From assembly GCA_020073485.1 (NCBI GenBank), contig JAIQFB010000033.1:1-48435 (forward strand): DNA of 48,435 nt. Direction: 5' to 3'. Below, piece by piece: positions 11,869 through 45,107 of the stretch. Source of the stretch: Terriglobia bacterium. GTDB taxonomy: Bacteria > Acidobacteriota > Terriglobia > Acidiferrales > UBA7541. The position numbers were made by a program, and so were the translations under genes. The notes beneath the pieces are model-generated. The model made no database searches. It was not told where the DNA came from and saw only the letters and a program-made list of their open reading frames with translations. The stretch's first letter is position 1; each line of letters opens with the position of its first letter.

Positions 11869-12594
11869 TCAACTCAGTGGAGCAAATCCAGCGCGCGAAG
11901 AAAACGGGCGGCGCCGCCGGCCGGTCTGCTGCTCGCGCTGCGTGGCGCGCACGATCAAATCCTCGAGCGCGTCGGCCGCCGCCGCGTCCCAGCGTTCGGC
12001 CTGAGGAGCGCCGCGCGCGGCTCCGGCCATGGCCGTGGCCGCGTAGGCCAGCGCTTCCTGCGCGTTGCGGATCAGCACGGGGCTGGTCGCGTCGGTCAGA
12101 TCGGGATAGGACTTCTGATAGCGCAGGCGGATCTGCGTGTCCTGCGTCGCGCCCAGGAAATACAATCCGTCGGCGCGCCATTCCCAGTAGCTGAGCGTTT
12201 GCGCCTGCGGCAACGATGGCAAACCGTCGTGATCGGTCAAGTCCGTCATCTCAATGAAATCGTCAGAGCTGAGATTGGCGCGCTCCCACAATTTCACCGG
12301 CACCAGCAGGTCCGGCGGCAACTGGTTGGGCGGCGCGGTCGCGTCCGTGATCGAAACCTGCGCCGACGCATCGACCACCGTCACCGCGGGCACCACCAGC
12401 AGCACGTTGTCGGTCAGAAACGATCCCGACTGGATATTCGCCAGCGCGCGCTGCGCCTTGCGATACCCCGAATTCACGTACGGCAGCAGCACCGCATCGG
12501 TGAACAGATTCCCCGCCGCATCGTTCAGCAGCGAACGCACCAGCGCCGTGATTTGCCCGGCAGTGTTATAAGCGGTTGTTCCAACAACTGGCAT
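11869..12594 (-). CDS. Head-to-tail adaptor-like protein
   Basis: A 241-residue protein with a clear ribosome site (GAGGAGCTGCC before ATG). The N-terminal part is helical and includes the pattern LVRSLLNDAAGNLFTDAVLL then PYVNSGYRKAQRALA, which resembles adaptor proteins that dock below the portal (T7 gp11/P22 gp4-type): one helix, a loop, a second helix with conserved N-x-G-Y. A beta-rich middle and a long C-terminal helix (NAQEALAYAATAMAGAAR) follow. Its place between the holin-like and decoration-like genes and the nozzle candidate agrees with a connector role. Family assignment is by pattern only. Confidence 0.6.
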   Translation of the reverse strand: MPVVGTTAYNTAGQITALVRSLLNDAAGNLFTDAVLLPYVNSGYRKAQRALANIQSGSFLTDNVLLVVPAVTVVDASAQVSITDATAPPNQLPPDLLVPVKLWERANLSSDDFIEMTDLTDHDGLPSLPQAQTLSYWEWRADGLYFLGATQDTQIRLRYQKSYPDLTDATSPVLIRNAQEALAYAATAMAGAARGAPQAERWDAAAADALEDLIVRATQREQQTGRRRRPFSSRAGFAPLS

Positions 12595-25639: not shown

Positions 25640-27121
25640 CTACCACCCCTGCGGCCGCCATCTCCGCGGCAGCACCGGCGCCACCCTCCGCGTCTCCTCC
25701 GCCGAAAATTTCTTCATCCAGATCGCTCGCGAAGTCGGATCGACGGCCGTCACGCGTTCGGCGGCCACCACATCGGCGGGCGCGCGCCCCGGATCGAGCG
25801 CCGACTTCAAGCCGTAGCGCGCGGCATCGGACGGATCGTCCCCATCGCACTTCAGCGTATCTTCCACGTTCGCGGGATCGCGCGTCAGCGTCGGCAGATT
25901 CTCGATCAGCCGCGTGCAGTTGTCCGCGATCACCCAGTGATCCGCTTCCAGCGCCTGGTACATCAGCATCCAGCCGCCCACGCGATCGTTGTCGGCCGGC
26001 GTCGGACGCGGCAAGCCGGCGGCCGCCAGCCCGTCGCCCAGTTGCTCGGCGATCGAAGCGTCGGCCGAGCGCTGCGCAAACGCGTCGGGAGAAAGAAAAA
26101 CGTCGCGAATGCGTTCGGTCGCGCCCAGGCGATCCACACTGCGTTCGGCGATGGCCGCGGCCAGCATGCGCGGCGAAAGATGGTTCTGCACAAACTCGCG
26201 ATAGGTCACCACGCTGCCGTCGGCGCGCGTCGCGTGCCAGTAGACCGCGCTGGGATGCTCGAATCCCCAGTCGATCGAAATCCACCGTGGCGTCCACGGC
26301 TCCAGCTGCACCTGCTCGGCGCGCACCGTGTGCCGTTCTGGCTTGAACACATCGAAGTACTGCCCCGCGTAAACATCCCACTCGCCGTCCAGAAACGCGC
26401 GCCGCAGCGCCTCGGGCAGTTGCCCCAGCGTCTTGCGGTACTGCGTGTCCTTATCGAACAGCGGATTGTCCGCGATCGTCGCGTGAATAAATTCGTAGTC
26501 GCCCGAATCGTACTGATCGGGACGGTCCATCCCCGGGGCCGGCGCGCGATCCACCCACAGCGCCTTCACCCAGGCGTGGCCAATGTTCCCCGGATTGGTC
26601 GCGCCGGCCATGCACGGACGCGCGCCCTTGATGTGGCAGCGATTCCGGCTGGTCAGAAACTGCCACTGCTTCAGCGTGAAATGCGTCAGTTCATCGACGC
26701 CGATAAAAAGATATTCAGCGCCCTGGTAGCGGTACACATCATTCTCGGTGTCGCAATACGCAAAGCGCGTGGTCGACCCGTTCAGCCAGGTCACGATGTG
26801 CTTGGATTCGTTATATTTTTCGTACAGTTCGCGCGGAACATCCCGCCGGAAATACGTGATCAGCGAAGCTTCCAGCTCCGGAAACGTCCTCCGCAGCAGC
26901 AGCGTATCGACGCCCGGATGCAGGTGCGCCTGGTAGATGGCCTCGTACAGCAGCGCCTTTGTCTTCCCCGGCCCTGCCGCCCCGCCGAACAACCGGTATT
27001 TCGCGTCGGACTCGTGAAACTCTTTCTGACGGTCAAAAGGCTCGTACCGGAATTTCTTGCAGAATTTGTCAAAGTTGCGAATGCAATTCTTCGCCTTTGA
27101 TTTGTCGGGTTTCTTCCCCAT
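25640..27121 (-). CDS. Large terminase subunit (TerL)
   Basis: A 493-residue protein, starting at ATG 27121 rather than the repeat-derived GTG 15 bases upstream. It is the ATPase-nuclease motor that packs phage DNA. The ATPase domain has Walker A GGAAGPGKT at 46-54, a coupling-like L-L-R-R-T motif after it, and Walker B in EYLFIGVDELTHF. The RNase H-like nuclease domain begins near WISIDWGFEHPSAV, whose aspartate is a metal ligand, and has further acidic positions downstream. Length and layout are normal, so the gene looks functional. No small subunit gene was found. It lies before the portal gene with one small gene and a cargo gene between. Confidence 0.95.
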   Translation of the reverse strand: MGKKPDKSKAKNCIRNFDKFCKKFRYEPFDRQKEFHESDAKYRLFGGAAGPGKTKALLYEAIYQAHLHPGVDTLLLRRTFPELEASLITYFRRDVPRELYEKYNESKHIVTWLNGSTTRFAYCDTENDVYRYQGAEYLFIGVDELTHFTLKQWQFLTSRNRCHIKGARPCMAGATNPGNIGHAWVKALWVDRAPAPGMDRPDQYDSGDYEFIHATIADNPLFDKDTQYRKTLGQLPEALRRAFLDGEWDVYAGQYFDVFKPERHTVRAEQVQLEPWTPRWISIDWGFEHPSAVYWHATRADGSVVTYREFVQNHLSPRMLAAAIAERSVDRLGATERIRDVFLSPDAFAQRSADASIAEQLGDGLAAAGLPRPTPADNDRVGGWMLMYQALEADHWVIADNCTRLIENLPTLTRDPANVEDTLKCDGDDPSDAARYGLKSALDPGRAPADVVAAERVTAVDPTSRAIWMKKFSAEETRRVAPVLPRRWRPQGW

Positions 27122-27129
27122 GGTCGTGG

Positions 27130-27250
27130 AATCCACAGATGAACGCAGATAAACACTGATAAAACCAGATCAAAGAACCAAGAGCCTAACCATGAGGACT
27201 TATTTGGTTGTTTTGCCTTTATCCGTGTCCATTCGTGTGCATCTGTGGAT
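27130..27250. repeat. CCACAGATG-type long inverted repeat
   Basis: ATCCACAGATGAACGCAGAT on the left, GTGTCCATTCGTGTGCATCT plus GTGGAT on the right. It fills the gap before the terminase gene and reaches to within nine bases of its start codon. Confidence 0.75.
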
Positions 27251-27648: not shown

Positions 27649-29853
27649 TCAATCGCAGCACCCCATCAGCCCCAGCGTGCTCGCCCCGGCGCGAAACACA
27701 TACGCGCCCATTTCCCATCCCCCGCCGGTATTCTGATTGAACAGCCCCACGCTCCCTGGCCACAAATCCCCGGCAAAAAGCCCCATCTGATACGTGGACC
27801 CGAGATTCACGCCCGAATCGATCGCCGGCGACCCCGTAAGCAGCGTGTAATCCCCGCCCGCAGAAAACGATGCGCCATTTGTCAGCGCTGGATTAGAAGT
27901 CAGAGAATGCGCATCCTGCGAACTCGCCGTCTTCCAATTCGCAAAGTTGTACGCCGTCCCGCCCCAGTTAAATGGCGTGCCCGACGCCGAAAAATAATCG
28001 TTGTAGTCGTAGGCCGTGCTGGTCTCCGAGGACGCGTCGACCGAAGCGTACCCGCCGGTCCAGAAAATATTATTTTTCACCAGCGTGCCCGTCGAAGTGG
28101 ACGCCTGCGTCACCACCGGATTCGCTACGCCAGGCCCGTACACCGTATTGTTGTAAATGACGCTGCCCGCGCTCCCGGTCAGCAGAAAACCTTCTCCTCC
28201 GGTCGTGCTCGAACTCGACGCCGAAATATCCAGCAGGTTGCTCCAGAACGCGATGGACGCGCCCGTGCCCAGCCCCGAATTTCCCCCGCTGCCCACGTCC
28301 ACGCCCCACTCGAAATTTCCGTAGATATAGCTGTGCGACACCGTCAGCGACGTCCCCGAATCCCCCACCAGCACGCCGTACCCATGCCCGTTGAACGTAT
28401 TCGACCGGAACGGCCCGGCGGTGCTGTAAATCAGGCAGCTGTCTATCGTGTTGTTCGCCGCGCCGCCGTGCGCCACCACCACGCTCCACACGCTGCCCGT
28501 AAACACGTAGGCCTCGCGCATGTACGTGTCGTTATAGAACGTGGAATTCTGAATGAGGTTCCCCGAATTCCCGGCGCCGTAAATGCACAGCGGCGATGTT
28601 CCGTACGAGTTGTAGGCGACGATGTTGGAAACAAGGTTGCTGGTCGCGCCCGTGTAGACACACACCGGATGCCGGTAGGTGTCATGAAACGCGGCATTGC
28701 GCACAATCGAGTGGCTGCCGGTCAAATAAATCCCGCCGAGCGTGGTGCTCGACGTGTTGTAGGTCTCGGCCTGGTCGAGTGAATCGAAAATTAACCAGGA
28801 CTGCCCGTTGTCCCAGGTCGTGAAGCTCGGGCTCGAAGCGGTCACGTACGAATACGTTTTGCCTTTGGTCGCAACATTCGAGTTGTCCGACGCGTGGATG
28901 TACAAAAACGTCCCGTCGTAGAACCACGATCCCGGCGTCTGGTCCACCGATAGCGGATTCAGCACCAGTTGCAGCAGATTGCCGTTTTCCCAAGCCGCCA
29001 CCGGCGCCGATCCCAGAGCCTGGTAATACGTGTACTGCGTGGTGTTGATCGCGACGATATTCTTGATGACGATGTTGCCGCCGGTCGAATACCCGCTCAC
29101 CGTGGTGCTCTGCGACTGGTCCGGCCCCGAAAAATTCGACCACAGCGTTTCGTGGTTGTTGGTGTAGTACTCGACGTTTCGCGCCGTGGTGTAGATCGTC
29201 ACCATCTGGTCGACGGTGTTATCCAGGCTGTACGAAAGCTGGTCCGATGTCACCGTGGTTCCGGCCGGCACGGTCACGCCATTGTTTCCGCCGCCCCAGG
29301 TAATGCGCGTGATCGAGCTTGTGTTCGGAGCGGTCGTCGCCGGGCCGATCCCCGCACCCGTAATGTTCAGCGCGGCGGTGGGCGATGCTGTAACGCTGAT
29401 GGTAATCAGCGACGCGGCATTGGTGATGTCCAGATGCGAAACCTGCTCGCGCCAGTTGCGCGTGGCGCTGTCCGTGCTCGATGTCAGCGAATCGGGCGGC
29501 GTAAAGATCGACGTCGTCGTATTCGGTGCCAGCGTATACCCGCTGGTATTGAGCAGCGTCGAACCTTTCACAATCGGATTGGCCCCGCTGCCGTACGCGC
29601 CAAACGTGATGGGCGATCCGCTCGCCCCGCTCGACGGCGCAACCAGCGAAGTCCCGTACCAGGCGTCGCCGCGATTAAACAAAACCGCATCGCCCGCCGA
29701 AAACGTCGACGCATTCACTTTCGCGATCGTCTGCCACGGCGCGCTTGGCGACGTCCCGCTGTTGGCATCGCTCCCGGCTGCCGCAACATAGTAAGTAGTA
29801 GCCCGAGCGGAAACAGCGGCAAGCATCACCATCAAGGTGGTGAGCCGGAACAC
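27649..29853 (-). CDS. Secreted right-handed beta-helix protein (pectate-lyase-like fold)
   Basis: With start GTG 29853 the product has 734 residues; the longer frame to 30135 reads through a repeat. Signal peptide FRLTTLMVMLAAVSARA is followed by TTYYVAAAGSDANSGTSPSA and PWQTIAKVN, the typical opening of beta-helix polysaccharide-binding or lyase proteins. Repeated short strands follow (SIVRNAAFHDTYRHPVCVYT; NLIQNSTFYNDTYMR; NTIDSCLIYSTAGPF; LTVSHSYIYGNFEWGVDVG), each a turn of the helix. No catalytic residues are assigned. It may be a tailspike-like protein that binds surface sugars, or a cell-exported carbohydrate-active protein; the signal peptide argues for the periplasm. Confidence 0.75.
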   Translation of the reverse strand: MFRLTTLMVMLAAVSARATTYYVAAAGSDANSGTSPSAPWQTIAKVNASTFSAGDAVLFNRGDAWYGTSLVAPSSGASGSPITFGAYGSGANPIVKGSTLLNTSGYTLAPNTTTSIFTPPDSLTSSTDSATRNWREQVSHLDITNAASLITISVTASPTAALNITGAGIGPATTAPNTSSITRITWGGGNNGVTVPAGTTVTSDQLSYSLDNTVDQMVTIYTTARNVEYYTNNHETLWSNFSGPDQSQSTTVSGYSTGGNIVIKNIVAINTTQYTYYQALGSAPVAAWENGNLLQLVLNPLSVDQTPGSWFYDGTFLYIHASDNSNVATKGKTYSYVTASSPSFTTWDNGQSWLIFDSLDQAETYNTSSTTLGGIYLTGSHSIVRNAAFHDTYRHPVCVYTGATSNLVSNIVAYNSYGTSPLCIYGAGNSGNLIQNSTFYNDTYMREAYVFTGSVWSVVVAHGGAANNTIDSCLIYSTAGPFRSNTFNGHGYGVLVGDSGTSLTVSHSYIYGNFEWGVDVGSGGNSGLGTGASIAFWSNLLDISASSSSTTGGEGFLLTGSAGSVIYNNTVYGPGVANPVVTQASTSTGTLVKNNIFWTGGYASVDASSETSTAYDYNDYFSASGTPFNWGGTAYNFANWKTASSQDAHSLTSNPALTNGASFSAGGDYTLLTGSPAIDSGVNLGSTYQMGLFAGDLWPGSVGLFNQNTGGGWEMGAYVFRAGASTLGLMGCCD

Positions 29854-29882
29854 CTTAAGCCCGAAATTGGTGGCGCGGGCTT

Positions 29883-29959
29883 TGGTAGCACAGGCTTCAG
29901 CCTGTGCGGTTTTAGGTTGCCGGGGCGCAAAGGCGCGCAGGCTAAAGCCCGTGCCACCA
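29883..29959. repeat. GCTTCAGCC palindromic pair
   Basis: Arms 29883-29908 and 29933-29959 are near reverse complements. The pair lies just upstream of the beta-helix gene start. Confidence 0.75.
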
Positions 29960-29965
29960 AGAATC

Positions 29966-31567
29966 TCACTGCACCACATAGCTGATGCCGCCCGATACCT
30001 GCCCGGATCCGGAATTGAACAGGCAAAGATTGTCCGCGCTGGTTCCCTCGGCGCCCACGGCCGCGGCACCGCTGCCCAGGGCAATGCCGCCGTTGGCCAT
30101 AAAACTCCATCCCGTCGCCGCGGTCGCGCCGCCAAACCCGCTCACACCCGCCGTGCCGGTGCCGCAAACCGTTCCGGTTCCTTCCACCAGCGCCACGCTG
30201 GTCGCCGCCGCTACCACCACGTGAATCGAGCAAATATAAATTTTCTTCGACGAAGTCCCTGCTACCAGCTGCGTGTTCGCCGTCTGATTAATGCTGACAA
30301 ACGATTTCGTTTGCGCCTGACACGGATCCAACGAGCTCGCACCGGCTTGCCCGGTGGCAAATTGCCCCTGAGCCGCAGCCGCAACCGCTGCTGCATGCCC
30401 CGCCGCGGGCCGCGCCAACCCGCGAAGGCTGAAGTCGAAAATGTCGGGACCTACGTTACTGTTCTCCCAACTCAACTGCTCGGATGGCCGCGATTTAGTA
30501 GCGTAGACTTCAATCTGCGCGCCCTTCGTATTCGTCGCCCCGTTCCCACTCGGAGACGCATCGAGCGCCGCGCCGAACAGCGCCAGCGTAACCGCCGCCA
30601 GCACGGTCCCAAAAATCCACCACTTGCTCTTGCCCCCGCGCGCCTCGGCCGATTTCCTGGCTGTGCCCGAATTACTGCCAGCCGCCGTTGCACTCAACTC
30701 TCCCCGCGAAGGCCTCCGCGTCAAATCCAGCAGCCCGCGCAGCACGCCAAATTCCACCGCCACTGCCGCCGCTTCATCCGCGCGCGCATCGCCCGTCACC
30801 GGCAACACAATCCGCAGCTCGCGCTCGGAATGCACCACACCGCCCGGACGGTCCACCATCACCGGAGCCGCCGCGAGTTGCGTCACGTGCCGCAAAATCG
30901 CCGCCTCCAGGTCCCCGTCCACCGAATCAAAATGAATATTCCCAGTAGGACAGGTCCCGACAGGGCCGGGATTTTCGACTTCAGCCTGTTTGCCTTTCGC
31001 ATCCCCGGCAAGAATCTGTCCGCCATCCTCATGTCCAGCGTCACCCAATCCGCATCGCTCGCCTGCGGCATCCTCCCCTTCCGAAAAAGAGGCGAGAGAG
31101 GAAGCGCCGCCAAACGAAGGCGACGCCTCCCCGCGATCCGCAGGTTGGCCGTGCGTGGACGAATCCGGCTGTGAGGCGGGCGCCCCCTCCGGAGTTCCCG
31201 CTTTTGGAGCGAGGGAGGGAGTCAGGGGTTGAGGAGCCGGGGCAAGACGGGTGTGGGCTGTACTTGCAGCCCACAAATCAGAAGTCTGGGCCGCTTTTGC
31301 TTGTCCTGACGAAGGACGCGCAACCCGCGAAATCGATGTCACACCTTCACTGAATGCCCGCGTCATCGAGGGCGCAGCGTTGCTTTCCGTTCCCGGCGCA
31401 ACAATACTCGCGGGTGAAGAGGTTTCAATCGCAACCGCATATCCCGAATGTGGCGCTTGCGTCACCACTTCGGCCGGCAGGAATTCCGTCACCGCAAATC
31501 CCGCCAGGCGCAGCAAGTGCCGCGTCGCCCGCGCGCAATTATTTTCGCCGATAATCTTGATTCGCAT
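29966..31567 (-). CDS. Composite prophage structural protein with internal membrane segment
   Basis: With start ATG 31567 (GCGGGAAAAT upstream) the product has 533 residues. Part one (about 1-260) starts MRIKIIGENNCARATRHLLR and includes a Pro/Ser-rich linker. Then comes a membrane segment (KSKWWIFGTVLAAVTLALFG) that looks like the signal peptide of a second protein. Part two ends in a beta domain (LDPCQAQTKSFVSINQTANT; KKIYICSIHVVVAAATSVAL; GSGQVSGGISYVV) often found alone in phage and environmental structural proteins. Two stretches (30945-30995 and 30424-30515) are repeat-derived in-frame sequence. It could be a fusion of two genes or an anchored virion protein. The beta domain likely forms the virion part. 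Confidence 0.65.
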   Translation of the reverse strand: MRIKIIGENNCARATRHLLRLAGFAVTEFLPAEVVTQAPHSGYAVAIETSSPASIVAPGTESNAAPSMTRAFSEGVTSISRVARPSSGQAKAAQTSDLWAASTAHTRLAPAPQPLTPSLAPKAGTPEGAPASQPDSSTHGQPADRGEASPSFGGASSLASFSEGEDAAGERCGLGDAGHEDGGQILAGDAKGKQAEVENPGPVGTCPTGNIHFDSVDGDLEAAILRHVTQLAAAPVMVDRPGGVVHSERELRIVLPVTGDARADEAAAVAVEFGVLRGLLDLTRRPSRGELSATAAGSNSGTARKSAEARGGKSKWWIFGTVLAAVTLALFGAALDASPSGNGATNTKGAQIEVYATKSRPSEQLSWENSNVGPDIFDFSLRGLARPAAGHAAAVAAAAQGQFATGQAGASSLDPCQAQTKSFVSINQTANTQLVAGTSSKKIYICSIHVVVAAATSVALVEGTGTVCGTGTAGVSGFGGATAATGWSFMANGGIALGSGAAAVGAEGTSADNLCLFNSGSGQVSGGISYVVQ

Positions 31568-39683: not shown

Positions 39684-40145
39684 TTAAGTAGCGGGCGTGA
39701 TTTTTTCCAAGAGCTTTTCCTTGCGATAGATCAATGCATTAATGTTGGAAGTGGCGAGCTCGAAGCCATGGCCGTGCGTGATGGCATCGGTGGGACACGC
39801 CTCCACACAATAGCCGCAAAAAATACATCGCGAATAATCGATATTGTAAACGCGGGCGTAGCGCTCTCCGGCGGAGATGCGTTGCGTATCAATGTTTTCG
39901 GCAGCCTCGATGTAAATACAGCGAGCGGGACATGCTGCCGCGCACAGGAAGCAGCCGACACACTTTTCCAGGCCATTTTCGTCTCTGTGCAGCACGTGAA
40001 TGCCGCGGTAGCGAGCCTGAAAATGGACCGGCTCTTCCGGATAGTTTTCGGTGACGGTTTTCCGCAGCATGTTGCGGAACGTCACGCTAAAACCCTTCAC
40101 CAGGGTAACGAATGTTTCGCCAGCTTCCTTAATCATCGAAGACAT
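39684..40145 (-). CDS. nuoI: NADH-quinone oxidoreductase subunit I (NuoI-like ferredoxin)
   Basis: A 153-residue protein starting MSSMIKEAGET. Two 4Fe-4S ferredoxin motifs are present: CVGCFLCAAACPARC and CIFCGYCVEACPTDA. The flanking MLRKTVTENYPEEPVHFQAR and RYARVYNIDYSRC segments are characteristic of NuoI, which passes electrons from the NADH arm to quinone in complex I. No other nuo genes are near, so it is a stand-alone copy. The YpdA-like flavoprotein gene lies upstream on the same strand. The role may be an extra complex I copy or another ferredoxin-dependent system. Confidence 0.9.
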   Translation of the reverse strand: MSSMIKEAGETFVTLVKGFSVTFRNMLRKTVTENYPEEPVHFQARYRGIHVLHRDENGLEKCVGCFLCAAACPARCIYIEAAENIDTQRISAGERYARVYNIDYSRCIFCGYCVEACPTDAITHGHGFELATSNINALIYRKEKLLEKITPAT

Positions 40146-40354
40146 CGGCTGCCAGTCTAACAAAGTCGGGGTTTCGCGGCAAATCGGACGAATCAGGAGA
40201 GTAACTTCGATCGCTGAGGCTGGTAGTACCGCATGCCTGTCACGGAGCAACGAGGAAATTCTATGCGCTCATTCTGAGTCAGCCGAACAGGGGCTGACAT
40301 TCCGGGGACAGGCATCCATCGCGGCGGAAGCAGGTTCTGCCACATCCAAAGCTG

Positions 40355-41350
40355 CTAAACGACGTCGCCCTGCATTCTTCCGCCAGTGATCGCGGCGATG
40401 ATCTGCTTGCCGTGGAAGCGTCCATTTTCGATGAAGATCTCGCTGGTATGATTTCCGCCGATCACCACTCCCGCCAGATAAATTCCGGGAACATTGCTTT
40501 CGTGAGTTTGTGGATTCATATGCGGCTTATTGGTCTCCGGATCCAGGGAAATGCCCATGGAACGCAGGAATTCGAAATCTGGATGGTAACCGGTGAGGGC
40601 AAACACCTGGTCGGCCGGCAGGGCCTTTTCACCCGTATGATTGGAGACTATGACGCGCCCGGGTTCAAACCGTTTGACTTCGGTATTGAAGAGCGCATGA
40701 ATCTGGCCGGCCTTGATGCGATTCTCAATATCGGGCCGCACCCAATACTTGATCGTGGACCCAAGTTCATTCTTGCGGACGACCATGGTGACGTTCACTC
40801 CGGTGCGGTACATGTCCAGAGCCGCCTCCGCTGCGGAGTTTTTCCCGCCAATGACCACCACGTTCCGCCTCCAGAAGGGATGCGGCTCGGTGTAGTAATG
40901 AGAAACATGCGGCAAATCCTCGCCCGGAACGCCGATGCGGTTGGGCAAGTCGTAGTAGCCGGTGGCCACGGCGATCTTCTTCGCGGCGAATTGCGTCACG
41001 ATTCCCTGCTCATCGCGGGTGTGCACGATAAAACGTCTGTCGGAACCCTCGACGCTCTCGACGCGATGGCCCAGGCGCAAGTCCAGCCCATAGTGCTCGA
41101 CGCACTTGCGGTAATACTTCAGGGCGTCGGTGCGCGTCGGTTTCTCGGTGGCGCAGGTCAGCGGCAAGTCGCCGATTTCCAGCAACTCCGGAGTCGTGAA
41201 AAAGACCATATTGACGGGATAATGATAAAGAGAGTTGCACAGGCAGCCCTTGTCGATAACCAAAGGCCGCAGGCCGGCGCGTTTGGCTTCGATGGCGCAA
41301 GCCAGCCCCGTGGGTCCAGCGCCGATGCAAATCAGATCGTAGGTGCTCAC
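40355..41350 (-). CDS. YpdA-like FAD/NAD(P)-binding disulfide reductase
   Basis: A 331-residue protein starting at GTG 41350 (VSTYDLICIG). The N-terminal FAD-binding motif is C-I-G-A-G-P-T-G-L-A. An NADPH-binding motif V-V-I-G-G-K-N-S-A-A-E lies near the middle, and the C-terminal FAD segment (GIYLAGVVIGGNHTSEIFIE) is present. This is the YpdA/BdrA family, known as bacillithiol-disulfide reductase in Firmicutes. The Firmicute enzymes have a Cys at residue 14 in G-G-G-P-C-G; here it is Thr14. A CXXC pair as in thioredoxin reductase is absent. The sense of the active site is therefore open. It lies on the minus strand upstream of nuoI and divergent from the kinase operon. Confidence 0.85.
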   Translation of the reverse strand: MSTYDLICIGAGPTGLACAIEAKRAGLRPLVIDKGCLCNSLYHYPVNMVFFTTPELLEIGDLPLTCATEKPTRTDALKYYRKCVEHYGLDLRLGHRVESVEGSDRRFIVHTRDEQGIVTQFAAKKIAVATGYYDLPNRIGVPGEDLPHVSHYYTEPHPFWRRNVVVIGGKNSAAEAALDMYRTGVNVTMVVRKNELGSTIKYWVRPDIENRIKAGQIHALFNTEVKRFEPGRVIVSNHTGEKALPADQVFALTGYHPDFEFLRSMGISLDPETNKPHMNPQTHESNVPGIYLAGVVIGGNHTSEIFIENGRFHGKQIIAAITGGRMQGDVV

Positions 41351-41420
41351 GAGAAGAGTTTGCCTTGGGATAAATGCTTTTGCAACTCCGCGGGCGGGCA
41401 TTCACCACGGCCTCACGAGG

Positions 41421-41474: not shown

Positions 41475-42245
41475 GTGGCCACGCGTACGGTACCGGCGAC
41501 AGACCCCATCTCGATCGAGCCGGGGGAGGCTCCCGGGGAAAATTCGCAGCTTCTGGAGCCCGCGCGAGCGTATCCGGGGGCGCTGATCGTCGTGGAAGGC
41601 ATCGATGGCTCCGGCAAGAGTACCCAGCTGTACCTGCTGAAGCGCTGGCTGGAAATCGGCGGTTATCGCCTGCACTTCACGGAATGGAATTCCTCTCCCC
41701 TGGTCAAATCGGCGACGCGGCGCGGGAAGCAGCGCCGGTTGCTCACGCCAACGACATTTTCGCTCCTGCACGCCGCCGATTTTGCTGACCGCTGCGAGCG
41801 CCAGATCCTGCCGCTGCTTCACAGCGGCTACCTGGTGCTGGCCGACCGTTACATTTACACCGCGTTTGCGCGCGATGTCGCGCGCAATTGTTCCCCGCGC
41901 TGGCTGCGCAATCTCTACCGCTTTGCCCCAATTCCAGACATTACTTTCTATTTCCGCGCGCCGCTCGACGTGGCCGTCAACCGCATCATGAGCGGCCGCC
42001 CCAAGCTCAAACACTACGAAGCCGGCATGGACCTGAATCTGTCGCTCGACCGCGCCGAAAGCTTCCGCATTTTCCAGGGACGCATCCTCGCGCAATACGA
42101 CGAGATGATCGAGTCCGACCATTTCGTGGTAATGGACGGAACGCTGCCCGTGAACAAGTTGCAGAAACAGATGCGGCAATTCGTGAAGTCGCGTATCGAT
42201 CTTTCGCGATTCGCTCCCAAGAAGGCCGCTCGGAGGGCTCGATGA
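41475..42245 (+). CDS. Thymidylate-kinase-like P-loop kinase, first of a tandem pair
   Basis: A 256-residue protein starting at GTG 41475 (GGGAGAAACCCAC upstream). After a 36-residue non-conserved start, the nucleotide kinase begins: Walker A GIDGSGKST at 42-50 with K48, then the DR motif LADRYIYTAFA where the Tmk family has DRY. The C-terminal half (FYFRAPLDVAVNRIMSGRP; YEAGMDLNLSLDRAESFRIF) contains a Y-E-A-G-M-D-L motif that is not typical of dTMP kinase. Tmk makes dTDP from dTMP and ATP; here the substrate is uncertain because of these deviations and the partners. Its stop overlaps the ATG of the next gene (ATGA), so the two are translationally coupled. Confidence 0.85.
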   Translation: MATRTVPATDPISIEPGEAPGENSQLLEPARAYPGALIVVEGIDGSGKSTQLYLLKRWLEIGGYRLHFTEWNSSPLVKSATRRGKQRRLLTPTTFSLLHAADFADRCERQILPLLHSGYLVLADRYIYTAFARDVARNCSPRWLRNLYRFAPIPDITFYFRAPLDVAVNRIMSGRPKLKHYEAGMDLNLSLDRAESFRIFQGRILAQYDEMIESDHFVVMDGTLPVNKLQKQMRQFVKSRIDLSRFAPKKAARRAR

Positions 42246-43039
42246 GCGCGGCAAAAAACGGCAAGAAAAAGGACCGCGCCAAGCTCGGCGTCGCCCCCGC
42301 TGGTGCTTCTTCCCGCAATTACGGGTTGCCCCTGCCGGGATTGAACGGCGAGGAATTCGGCGGCTCGCTTATCGTGATCGAAGGCATGGACGGCTCGGGA
42401 CGCTCGACGCAGATCTCCCTGCTCACTGAGTGGCTGGAGTCGGAAGGTTTTGCGGTCGAAACCATGGGCCTGCGCCGCTCGGGCTTGGTGGCGAAAGACA
42501 TTGACGCCCTGCTGGCCGAAAACACGATCACCCGGATGACCCTCACGCTGATGTACGCGACCGATTTTTACGACCAGCTCGAGCACCGCATCATTCCCGC
42601 TCTGCGCTCGGATTTTGTTGTTCTGGCCGACCGATACTTTTATACTCTGATTGCCCGGGCGGCCGTGCGCGGCATCGAGCGCGATTACCTGCACGGGCTC
42701 TACGAGATGGCTTTGCGGCCCGATCTCACGTTCTGGCTCAACGTCCGCCCGGAGGCGGCGTTTGAACGCGAATTTCGCAAGTCGCACGCCATCAGCTATT
42801 GGGAATCGGGACGCGATCTGTCCCTTTCCGACGATTTATACCAGTCTTTCATCATGTATCAGGCCAAGATCAAGAAGGAATTCGAATCGCTCGCCGAACG
42901 CCAGGGTTTCCTGGCGATGGATGGCGAAGCCAGTGTCGCCGCTGTGAACTCGGAATTGCGCAAACGCATCGCGGCGCATTTGGGTATTCAACGAACTCAT
43001 TACCGGCCATCCGCTGCGTTGGCCCCACTGTGGCGCTGA
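42242..43039 (+). CDS. Thymidylate-kinase-like protein with an altered P-loop, second of the pair
   Basis: A 265-residue protein, paralogous to the preceding one; ATG 42242 overlaps its stop. A basic, disordered start (KNGKKKDRAKLG) precedes the kinase fold. Walker A reads GMDGSGRST at 48-56, with Arg54 where all active family members have Lys. The DR motif is LADRYFYTLIARA. The later motif YWESGRDLSLSDD matches the first protein's YEAGMDLNLSLD, so the two share a sub-family feature. The altered lysine suggests a weak or inactive partner, perhaps forming a heterodimer with the first kinase. The gene overlaps the next by GTGGCGCTGA. Confidence 0.85.
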   Translation: MSAAKNGKKKDRAKLGVAPAGASSRNYGLPLPGLNGEEFGGSLIVIEGMDGSGRSTQISLLTEWLESEGFAVETMGLRRSGLVAKDIDALLAENTITRMTLTLMYATDFYDQLEHRIIPALRSDFVVLADRYFYTLIARAAVRGIERDYLHGLYEMALRPDLTFWLNVRPEAAFEREFRKSHAISYWESGRDLSLSDDLYQSFIMYQAKIKKEFESLAERQGFLAMDGEASVAAVNSELRKRIAAHLGIQRTHYRPSAALAPLWR

Positions 43040-44607
43040 GACTATCCCAACCCATCCACTTGGCCGCAATCGACGCCGGCTCCAACGCCTTCCGGTTAAT
43101 TATCGCCAGAGTCCGCTCCACCGACGAATGGGAAATCGTCGAGTCCGTGCGCGCCCCCGTGCGCCTGGGGCACTCCGCGTTTACTGCCGGAAAATTCGAT
43201 CGCAAGACCTTGCGCGACGCCACCGAAGCCTTTCGCGACTTTCGCCGGCGCATGGACCGTCACGGTGTGATCGCCTACCGCGCCGTGGCCACCAGTGCCG
43301 CGCGGGAAGCCCGCAACCGCCACGTCCTCGTCGAACGCGTCCGCCATCAAGCCAGAATCAATCTGGAAATCATCTCCGGCGACGAAGAGGCACGCCTTGT
43401 GCGCCTCGCCACCCTACGCGCCCTGCGCAACTTCGACGCGCCACGCTTCATCCTCGATCTGGGCGGCGGCAGCCTGGAGCTGAATGAATTGCATCACGGC
43501 GCTCTGCGAAAAACCGTCGGACTCCCGTTGGGAACGGTTCGGTTGATGGAGACTTTTCACGCCCAAGGCGTCATCCCGGAACACATCGCGAACGATATCC
43601 GCCTCCATGTCTTGTCCGTGCTCCAGAGCGCCATGCAAAGCCGCCCGGGCATGGCAACCTCCCTCGCCGTCGCATGCGGAGGCAATGCGGAGACCCTCGC
43701 CGTTCTGGCTTCCGGGCCAAAAGCCGGTGGGCTCCCGACCCTGAATCTGCGGCTGCTGCGGGACCGCGTCCAGCAGATTCTTCAGCTCGACGTCGAAGGC
43801 CGAATGAAGGCGTTCGGCGTTCGCCGCGACCGAGCCGAGGTCATGGGCGTCGCGGGGGTGGTTCTGGTGACCGTGGCCCGTTGGCTGCGCCTGCGCCAAA
43901 TGATCATCCCGCGCGTCGGCGTGCGCGAAGGATTGCTCTACGAACTTGCCGCCGCGCAAATGGCCCAGTCCCTGCCCTCGGCTGAGCAAAGAACGCAGGC
44001 GCAAGTCATGCTGGCCGGAGCCGAATCCTTCGCCTGCAGGCTCCGCTGCGACCTCAAGCACGGCGAGCAGGTTCGCCTCCTGGCTCTGCAGCTGTTCGAC
44101 AAGCTCTGGCCCTACCATCGTCTGGATTTTGAATCGCGCACGATTCTCGAAGCGGCCGCCATCCTGCACGATTCCGGCGAACTCATCAACCGCAAGGGGC
44201 ACCATCGCCACGGCGAATATCTGGTGTGGAACGCCAAAATCCCCGGGCTTCGCGGCTGGGCCAAAAATATGACCGCGTGTTTGGTGCGCTATCACAACAA
44301 GAAATCCGAACCCAGCGCGAAACACAAAGTCTTCGCCTCGCTCGACCCGAAACATCGCAAGACGGCGCGCATCCTTTCCGGATTGCTGCGCCTGGCCGAG
44401 CGCCTGGAAAGCGATCACCGCCAGGCCATCGCCCGCCTCAGCCTCGAGGGCGGCCCGCGCGAGGTCCGCCTCCACGTCGAATTGCGCGACAATTCCCGCC
44501 TGAACCTCGCCGGCATCGAGCGCAAGGCCCGCCTGCTGGAAAAGGAACTGAACCTGCGCCTGACGTTTCACCGCGTCCTGGTCGTCGAAAAAGCGAGGGT
44601 GGCGTAA
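43030..44607 (+). CDS. Ppx/GppA-type phosphatase with C-terminal HD domain
   Basis: A 525-residue protein starting at GTG 43030. The N-terminal actin-like domain has AAIDAGSNAFRLIIARV, the EISGDEEARL segment and ILDLGGGSLEL, the three signature regions of exopolyphosphatases and pppGpp phosphatases (Ppx/GppA). The C-terminal part has an HD domain (AAILHDSGELINRKGHHRHG; H380-D381) and ends in the conserved VRLHVELRDNSRLNLAGIER segment. Such two-domain proteins hydrolyse polyphosphate chain ends or pppGpp. The start overlaps the preceding kinase gene by 10 bases, and sixA overlaps the stop, so all four genes form one transcript. Confidence 0.9.
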   Translation: MALRLSQPIHLAAIDAGSNAFRLIIARVRSTDEWEIVESVRAPVRLGHSAFTAGKFDRKTLRDATEAFRDFRRRMDRHGVIAYRAVATSAAREARNRHVLVERVRHQARINLEIISGDEEARLVRLATLRALRNFDAPRFILDLGGGSLELNELHHGALRKTVGLPLGTVRLMETFHAQGVIPEHIANDIRLHVLSVLQSAMQSRPGMATSLAVACGGNAETLAVLASGPKAGGLPTLNLRLLRDRVQQILQLDVEGRMKAFGVRRDRAEVMGVAGVVLVTVARWLRLRQMIIPRVGVREGLLYELAAAQMAQSLPSAEQRTQAQVMLAGAESFACRLRCDLKHGEQVRLLALQLFDKLWPYHRLDFESRTILEAAAILHDSGELINRKGHHRHGEYLVWNAKIPGLRGWAKNMTACLVRYHNKKSEPSAKHKVFASLDPKHRKTARILSGLLRLAERLESDHRQAIARLSLEGGPREVRLHVELRDNSRLNLAGIERKARLLEKELNLRLTFHRVLVVEKARVA

Positions 44608-45107
44608 TGATGCATGTCTATCTGGTCCGCCACGGCATTGCCATGGACCGCGAGGACCCCAAATGCCCTCCCGACACCGAGCGTCCCCTGACGCCCAAGG
44701 GAATGAAGCGTTCTCACGCTGCGGCGCTCGGCCTGCGCGCCCTGAAAGTCCGTCCCGACGCGATGCTCACCAGCCCGTGGTTGCGCGCCGTGCAAACCGC
44801 CGAGATTTTTTCCGAGGTCATGGGCTTCTCCTCAAAAAAAATCGTCCAGGTGGACGCCCTGAAAGGCACCAGCACCCCCGCCGAACTGTTTCGTGAATTG
44901 GGCAAACTGCGGGCAAGAACGGTCCTGTGCTTCGGCCACGAACCGCATCTGCACCTGGTCATCGGCCAGGTCCTGCACACCGCGGCGAAAATTACGGAGC
45001 TGAAAAAAGCCGGCGTCGCCTGCCTGGACCTGGAACGAATTTCCCCGCCGCAAGGTCAGCTGATCGCCCTCTACCCGCCGGCCACGCTGCGCCTGCTGGG
45101 AAGTTAG
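44607..45107 (+). CDS. sixA: SixA-type phosphohistidine phosphatase (histidine phosphatase family)
   Basis: A 166-residue protein of the branch-2/SixA type of the histidine phosphatase superfamily. The catalytic RHG motif is at R8-H9-G10 (YLVRHGIAMD), and the second histidine lies in LCFGHEPHLHLVIG. The substrate sense of SixA is phosphohistidine on regulatory proteins. The ATG is the last base of the Ppx stop (TAATG overlap), so it is the fourth gene of the coupled operon. CHAD proteins are common beside such genes in other genomes, but none is seen here. Confidence 0.9.
   Translation: MMHVYLVRHGIAMDREDPKCPPDTERPLTPKGMKRSHAAALGLRALKVRPDAMLTSPWLRAVQTAEIFSEVMGFSSKKIVQVDALKGTSTPAELFRELGKLRARTVLCFGHEPHLHLVIGQVLHTAAKITELKKAGVACLDLERISPPQGQLIALYPPATLRLLGS

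Follow-up and report, generated by a model that had tools for sequence, protein, structure and literature searches.

In a 48,435-nucleotide stretch of Acidobacteriota DNA (Terriglobia bacterium, contig JAIQFB010000033.1; this whole stretch is called the window below), we analysed an operon at positions 41475–45107 that encodes two thymidylate kinase-like proteins (TmkA and TmkB), a Ppx/GppA phosphatase and a SixA-like phosphatase. Our reading, to which we give a probability of about 0.77, is that the operon is a polyphosphate module in which TmkA and TmkB would together make up a polyphosphate kinase of two subunits, both with the thymidylate-kinase fold, and not an enzyme of DNA-precursor synthesis. 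The reading builds on features of the pair that are observed directly, namely its gene order, its conservation, the loss of motifs in its members, and its distribution.

A preliminary description of this DNA had reported four overlapping genes (joined at ATGA, GTGGCGCTGA and TAATG) for two Tmk-like kinases, a Ppx/GppA-HD phosphatase and SixA. Both the arrangement and the names hold: the genes lie on the forward strand with overlaps of 4, 10 and 1 bases (Table 1), and Pfam and NCBIfam agree with the assignments, the cautions being that the SixA and HD scores fall slightly below their cut-offs. GGAGGG stands immediately 5' of the tmkB ATG, ppx starts 10 bases inside tmkB (overlap GTGGCGCTGA), and ppx and the sixA-like gene share one base (TAATG). 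Both kinases exceed the PF02223 cut-off of 27 bits. The Ppx/GppA protein belongs to its family according to PF02541 (cut-off 27); its C-terminal HD-type domain scores 20.1 bits in Pfam (cut-off 22), and it reaches 209 bits against the exo_poly_only model, under the cut-off of 307. The fourth protein is a member of PF00300 and misses the TIGR00249 sixA cut-off (68.9 vs 74.5 bits), and is therefore called SixA-like here. No CHAD gene was found in the window using a CHAD model built for this analysis.

The kinases share the fold, the P-loop and the DRY motif with canonical Tmk, and differ from it in lacking the PGG loop, a conserved arginine and the YQ motif. We counted motifs in 118 TmkA and 116 TmkB sequences (repeated or near-identical rows, e.g. 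L046/L112 and L162/L206, were kept, and four A' rows of a third pair type, see below, were excluded beforehand) and in 17 control Tmk sequences from 17 loci of the sampled genomes. The arginine column after YxAx, which we take to be the thymine-site arginine (R70 in S. aureus; this arginine and a glutamine presumably bind thymine in S. aureus and E. coli Tmk), holds R in 17/17 controls, 16 of them with the pattern YxA(D/E/A/S/N)R, and F or L in 118/118 TmkA and 116/116 TmkB. YQ is present in 14/17 controls and in 0/118 TmkA and 0/116 TmkB, and the PGG loop, missing from the pair proteins, is found in 13/17 controls. WNSS occurs in 118/118 TmkA. The unusual motif that the preliminary description saw in both kinases (YEAGMDLNLS in TmkA and WESGRDLSLS in TmkB of the window) proved to be a family feature, its core E[AS]G.[DG] being present in 118/118 TmkA, 108/116 TmkB and only 1/17 control Tmk.

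The two proteins differ at the Walker A motif, which is intact in TmkA (GIDGSGKST) and altered in TmkB (GMDGSGRST), a difference that the preliminary description had missed; the lysine is present in all 17 controls, as it is in all TmkA, and is replaced by arginine in nearly all TmkB (Table 1). The bacterial TmkB counted carry this K to R change, whereas the Sulfolobales-like TmkB have DGY in place of DRY; DGY is found in 6/116 TmkB, which are the six Sulfolobales-like ones and no others, and two of the six also have the Walker-A arginine. Lysine loss as a universal rule was ruled out by the other four. TmkB is nevertheless altered at a catalytic residue in 116/116 sequences, because those without the K to R change have DGY for DRY, i.e. 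by two routes, and this conserved loss of an essential kinase residue places TmkB among catalytically altered kinase subunits.

The window genome (97% complete) carries a separate Tmk-like gene (C4:117496-118071) with FPRY, AGDR and LAHQ motifs, those expected in an archaeal/eukaryotic-type dTMP kinase. Searching 30 genomes with PF02223 (27 with the pair and three with only the third pair type), we found another Tmk hit of at least 80 bits in 25.

Adjacent tmkA and tmkB genes were identified in 27 of 149 sampled Acidobacteriota genomes (the phylum sample), spread over 12 families; one genome has two copies, giving 28 loci. The pair was missing from all 14 further genomes sampled from the window genome's class, which belong to a single family. 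In a wider scan, using one genome per species, at least 594 stretches matched, at least 571 of them with an encoded relative at E 1e-3, though ordinary Tmk may be among these. We analysed the best 80 stretches; nearly all are from metagenome bins, with 48 from Verrucomicrobia, and they cover Acidobacteria, Verrucomicrobia, Sumerlaeota, Neomarinimicrobiota, Coriobacteriia, Ignavibacteria, Anaerolineae, Chthonomonadales, Geobacter, Mahella, Lindowbacteria and Nitrososphaeria-type archaea. All but one of these loci (79/80) also encode TmkB, and the exception is cut short by a contig end. A third set comes from the archaeal phylum of genome G149, where 11/151 genomes have the pair: five Nitrososphaeria-like and six Sulfolobales-like genomes, the latter assigned from closeness to S. 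tokodaii ST1543 and having profile hits of 247–269 bits. (In this search 67/151 genomes matched at E 1e-20, and the 56 with a single weaker match, presumed to be ordinary archaeal Tmk, were not counted.) TmkA and TmkB are adjacent on one strand in 28/28 phylum, 78/80 wider-scan and 10/10 archaeal loci (116/118 in total); since all loci were chosen for encoding TmkA, these counts measure pairing and not gene frequency. Among 145 genomes assigned to the phylum of G157, itself a Verrucomicrobia bin, the pair was found at E 1e-40 in one, G157 itself, and PPK1 in 112; this result contrasts with the many pair-bearing Verrucomicrobia contigs of the wider scan, may reflect the sample, the group assignment or the depth of the search, and is not used as support.

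Four further loci (L071, L072, L073 and L074) have a third, distant type of pair, kept out of the pair counts, in which A' has GSGK and, in three of the four, the downstream partner lacks a recognisable P-loop. This points to a second subunit that has decayed or changed more than once.

Genes neighbouring the pair were first named from motifs and custom models, and examples were then checked with Pfam. One or more of the genes for Ppx, CHAD, SixA, PPK1 and PPK2 occur no further than 6 kb from the pair in 23/28 phylum, 43/78 wider-scan and 9/10 archaeal loci, counts that stand without a computed chance level and that use Ppx, CHAD and SixA models derived from these same phylum loci and from the window. 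In the Pfam check, 11 of 13 CHAD, 3/3 Ppx and 2/2 SixA-like neighbours were confirmed over cut-off. Near relatives of the window keep the order TmkA-TmkB-Ppx-SixA, and in four loci (L097, L098, L100 and L101) a CHAD gene directly follows SixA on the opposite strand (Pfam score of 103 bits in L097). In other phylum loci (e.g. L112 and L172), Ppx-TmkA-TmkB and the genes for a small basic protein, a metallophosphoesterase and CHAD all run in the same direction. The Sulfolobales-like loci have SixA-Ppx-TmkA-TmkB in 6/6 cases, followed in 3/6 by a weak CHAD match (Pfam 25.7, 23.3 and 19.6 bits, one of the three being over the cut-off of 25.6). CHAD domains bind polyphosphate specifically, according to passages of PMC6537752. 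Metallophosphoesterase neighbours were found in 14/28 phylum loci, one of them confirmed by Pfam.

Directly 3' of TmkB, a cluster of nine loci (L046–L051, L054, L055 and L058) encodes a small basic protein that contains a conserved stretch resembling KVKPKKGRVKDLARIEAL. By profile it was found in 16/28 phylum loci, and a Pfam scan of the L050 protein gave no match.

PPK1, whose cellular role is the one we propose for the pair, is seldom found together with it in the phylum: PPK1 was detected in 2/27 pair genomes vs 67/122 others (Fisher 3e-6), and at the genus level in 2/20 genera with the pair vs 42/78 without (3.5e-4), statistics that ignore shared ancestry and include many incomplete bins. 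The two genomes with both belong to families f7 and f17; in family f32, two genomes have the pair and no PPK1, and two have PPK1 and no pair. PPK2 shows a different pattern, being present in 22/27 pair genomes vs 65/122 others. Taken jointly, the pair is found in 20 of the 26 genomes that have PPK2 and lack PPK1, vs 2 of the 61 that have both. The window genome itself has PPK2, and PPK1 was not found in it at E 1e-10. Neither TmkA nor TmkB matches the PPK1 domain PF02503 or the PPK2 domain PF03976, PF02223 being their sole Pfam match. We also surveyed a wider set of 60 pair genomes (32 non-Verrucomicrobia and 18 of the 48 Verrucomicrobia of the best 80 loci, and 10 archaeal genomes), in which at least two of the 12 Acidobacteria (L112 and L172) appear to duplicate genomes of the phylum sample (G018 and G118). 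PPK2 was found in 26 of the 60 (archaea 2/15), and the six Sulfolobales-like genomes sampled have neither PPK1 nor PPK2.

In a tree of 140 rows, TmkB forms one group (100/100; bootstrap not converged), and the pair, together with the third type, is set off by a long branch (100/99) from the ordinary and archaeal Tmk sampled. According to AlphaFold2 (AF2) models (predicted local distance difference test of 91.6 for TmkA and 88.9 for TmkB), the best fold match of both proteins is S. tokodaii ST1543 (5h70 for TmkA), with Z of 27.9 and 27.8, respectively, and the other Tmk among the fold matches listed have Z of at most 24.9 (TmkA) and 23.6 (TmkB). Sequence profiles compared with solved structures also gave ST1543 (2plr) as the best match (TmkA 262 bits, E 2e-77; TmkB 193 bits, E 4e-56), and every other solved Tmk among the matches listed scores at most 74.1 bits. 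ST1543 is thus of the same family (by profile) and fold, and the window proteins differ from it by their dedicated partner and bacterial context. PPK2 is not among the 50 rows listed in the fold comparison, which carries no weight either way.

Several known systems can be compared with the pair. Polyphosphate synthesis in Crenarchaeota was formerly unexplained (passages of PMC6864096 and PMC7831078), and a distinct PPK-type enzyme of S. acidocaldarius is now cited as the crenarchaeal polyphosphate synthesiser (passages of PMC11677633 and PMC13318637). The studies cited are those of Hofmann et al. (bioRxiv 2024, which reportedly describes an 'archaeal family 3 polyphosphate kinase'; J Biol Chem 2026, 302:111283). 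By profile hits, neighbours and the TmkB group, the window pair forms a common family with the Tmk-like genes found in the SixA-Ppx cluster of Sulfolobales. The crenarchaeal enzyme probably belongs to this family too, because Sulfolobales-like genomes without PPK1 or PPK2 carry TmkA-TmkB in a SixA-Ppx cluster, and it is probably the TmkA of Sulfolobales; the window operon may therefore be placed as a bacterial member of a recently recognised kind.

The pair also resembles PPK2, above all two-domain class II enzymes such as PA3455, in having a thymidylate-kinase-like fold and a presumably inactive beside an active half; it differs in that its halves are separate genes, whereas PA3455 is a fusion. 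This two-domain PPK2 of P. aeruginosa is a precedent for such an arrangement (passages of PMC8776046), and a Dali search with a PPK2 structure returned Tmk directly after three PPK2s, with ST1543 first (passages of PMC4748334). For biomining archaea, passages of PMC10892726 describe a cluster of SixA, PPX, a 'dTMP kinase' and CHAD in which the kinase is given no polyphosphate role, the bacteria treated there being Acidithiobacillus. In our literature search, no title, abstract or passage found describes the bacterial pair, and the SixA/PPX/dTMP kinase/CHAD set appeared in PMC10892726 only, for archaea.

The preliminary description had suggested a polyphosphate or phospho-nucleotide module with a substrate other than dTMP, drawing the link to polyphosphate from the neighbours. 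The pairing, the CHAD neighbours and the near-exclusion of PPK1 in the phylum argue for this suggestion, as does the genome's own separate Tmk with dTMP-kinase motifs; the link from the neighbours is strengthened by CHAD in relatives, by the same near-exclusion, and by the Sulfolobales-like cluster in genomes without PPK1 and PPK2. The check that it named, whether the four genes stay together, also came out in its favour: the two kinases remain paired throughout the phylum and well outside it, in many cases beside Ppx and SixA, although the exact four-gene order was seen in near relatives only and varies in other loci.

In the mechanism that we propose, TmkA would supply the working ATP site, with its intact Walker A and DRY motifs. 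TmkB keeps the fold, and its part may be to bind the polyphosphate chain or else to complete the active site or regulate it; it is itself probably incapable of normal ATP-driven transfer because of its Walker-A arginine (or, in the Sulfolobales-like proteins, the lost DRY arginine). The pair would shuttle phosphate between nucleotide and polyphosphate, Ppx would hydrolyse the chain, the SixA-like protein may act on the phosphate product or on phosphohistidine, and CHAD, where present, would bind the polymer. In most sampled phylum genomes with the pair, it would replace PPK1 and feed PPK2. Judging from sequence, it is most likely that the two proteins form a complex, that polyphosphate is the substrate, that net synthesis prevails over use, and that TmkB plays a part of the kind outlined. 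We also consider a bolder version, tentatively and at somewhat less than even odds: the pair would be an obligate heteromeric polyphosphate kinase (an active and a Walker-A-arginine subunit) that goes back to one ancient duplication of a thymidylate-kinase-like ancestor, then reached many bacterial phyla as well as two lineages of archaea, and displaced PPK1 as the synthase in much of Acidobacteriota, with the TmkB arginine serving as a functional phosphate-binding chain guide and not a mark of decay.

Several results weigh against a polyphosphate kinase, in addition to the limits given above for the neighbour counts and the exclusion statistics. None of the five neighbours lies within 6 kb in 35/78 wider-scan loci (partly owing to contig ends), and six genomes of the phylum sample with PPK2 and without PPK1 lack the pair. 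In the survey of 60 pair genomes, PPK1 was found in 16 (Verrucomicrobia 11/18, Acidobacteria 3/12, others 2/15, archaea 0/15), and it is encoded in the same cluster as the pair in two loci (L141 and L154). The pair is thus not simply a substitute for PPK1 everywhere, and replacement as a universal rule was ruled out by these 16 genomes, 11 of them Verrucomicrobia. Walker-A lysine is present in 4/116 TmkB, all Sulfolobales-like and with DGY replacing DRY, and the grouping of TmkA beside TmkB in the tree is weak (43/21). An hhalign comparison with the genome's own PPK2 gave a probability of 1.5% and aligned nothing past the P-loop stretch; together with the missing PF03976 match, this ruled out membership of PPK2 by sequence.

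Some of these points suit a pair that runs the other way, as a polyphosphate-driven nucleotide kinase (PPK2-like) that would regenerate nucleoside triphosphates (NTPs) from polyphosphate made elsewhere. The neighbours fit this equally well, PPK1 as the possible maker is present in those 11 Verrucomicrobia and beside the pair in the two loci, and PPK2 enzymes mostly favour polyphosphate use (passages of PMC8776046). We consider this direction unlikely, since PPK1 is missing from 25/27 phylum and 15/15 archaeal pair genomes, which would leave them with no known synthase except PPK2, and 22/27 pair genomes already have PPK2 for the task.

Less probable still is that the pair is a dTMP kinase, or a broad deoxynucleoside monophosphate (dNMP) kinase, with a duplicated subunit, clustered with genes of general phosphate and nucleotide metabolism. 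The proteins do pass the TIGR00041 dTMP kinase cut-off of 83.25, narrowly (85.0 bits for TmkA and 88.2 for TmkB), as they do that of PF02223, and ST1543 was deposited as a dTMP kinase; its four entries (2plr, 4nzy, 4rzx and 5h70) carry that title, as plain, type-2, type-3 and with ADP, but TMP is in none of the titles. Moreover, no other convincing Tmk was found with PF02223 in 5/27 pair genomes (G005, G018, G032, G109 and G136), which may be due to gaps in the assemblies, to a divergent enzyme that escaped the search, or to the pair itself acting on dTMP; weak PF02223 hits in L092–L094, two of which (L092 and L093) are the third hits of G018 and G032, are presumably deoxynucleoside kinases and not Tmk. 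Against a dTMP role, the arginine and YQ motif of the controls are gone from every pair member counted, another Tmk is present in 22/27 pair genomes, the window genome among them, and the long branch sets the pair apart from the ordinary and archaeal Tmk sampled. The least probable of the alternatives is a nucleotide kinase, or a phosphotransferase whose substrate is some other small phosphorylated molecule (e.g. a signal based on phosphohistidine or inositol phosphate), with the phosphatases in common: SixA is a named phosphohistidine phosphatase family, and half of the phylum loci have metallophosphoesterases beside the pair, but the association with CHAD and Ppx and the pattern of PPK1 and PPK2 point to polyphosphate.

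Genomes with the pair are now annotated with several thymidylate kinases and, if PPK1 is missing, with no dedicated polyphosphate synthase. If the polyphosphate-kinase reading is true, both annotations are misleading in many Acidobacteriota and in the Nitrososphaeria- and Sulfolobales-like archaea, and these organisms are overlooked when PPK1 serves as the survey marker of polyphosphate storage. The pair would also be a natural duo of an active and an altered kinase, conserved in two domains of life, and would make the role of a Walker-A arginine directly testable.

Table 1. Positions of the operon genes, selected codons and other features in the window
Feature	Position	Strand	Remarks
tmkA	41475-42245	+	GTG start, 256 amino acids; Thymidylate_kin PF02223 72.9 bits
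TmkA Walker-A lysine codon (AAG, K48)	41616-41618	+	K in 118/118 TmkA
ATGA overlap, tmkA stop / tmkB start	42242-42245	+	4 bases
tmkB	42242-43039	+	265 amino acids; Thymidylate_kin PF02223 73.6 bits
TmkB codon CGC (R54) at the Walker-A lysine position	42401-42403	+	R in 112/116 TmkB
ppx/gppA-HD	43030-44607	+	GTG start, 525 amino acids; PF02541 141.8 bits, PF21447 (domain III) 83.4 bits
sixA-like	44607-45107	+	166 amino acids; His_Phos_1 PF00300 42 bits
YpdA-type bacillithiol-disulfide-reductase-like gene	40355-41401	divergent from operon	upstream of operon; Pfam/NCBIfam
NuoI-like ferredoxin gene	39684-40250	divergent from operon	Pfam/NCBIfam
SU10-type adaptor	11872-12594	-	likely prophage
Terminase large subunit	25643-27136	-	likely prophage
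Beta-helix protein	27652-30135	-	likely prophage

Other genes of the window include those for ParB and ParA, which according to Pfam and NCBIfam lie downstream of the operon on the opposite strand. A likely prophage occupies about 5000–38000 on the reverse strand, flanked by NAD synthase/DsbA-like genes on one side and by the YpdA/NuoI-like genes on the other; several of its long reading frames have no Pfam match, and its terminase, adaptor and beta-helix genes are listed in Table 1.

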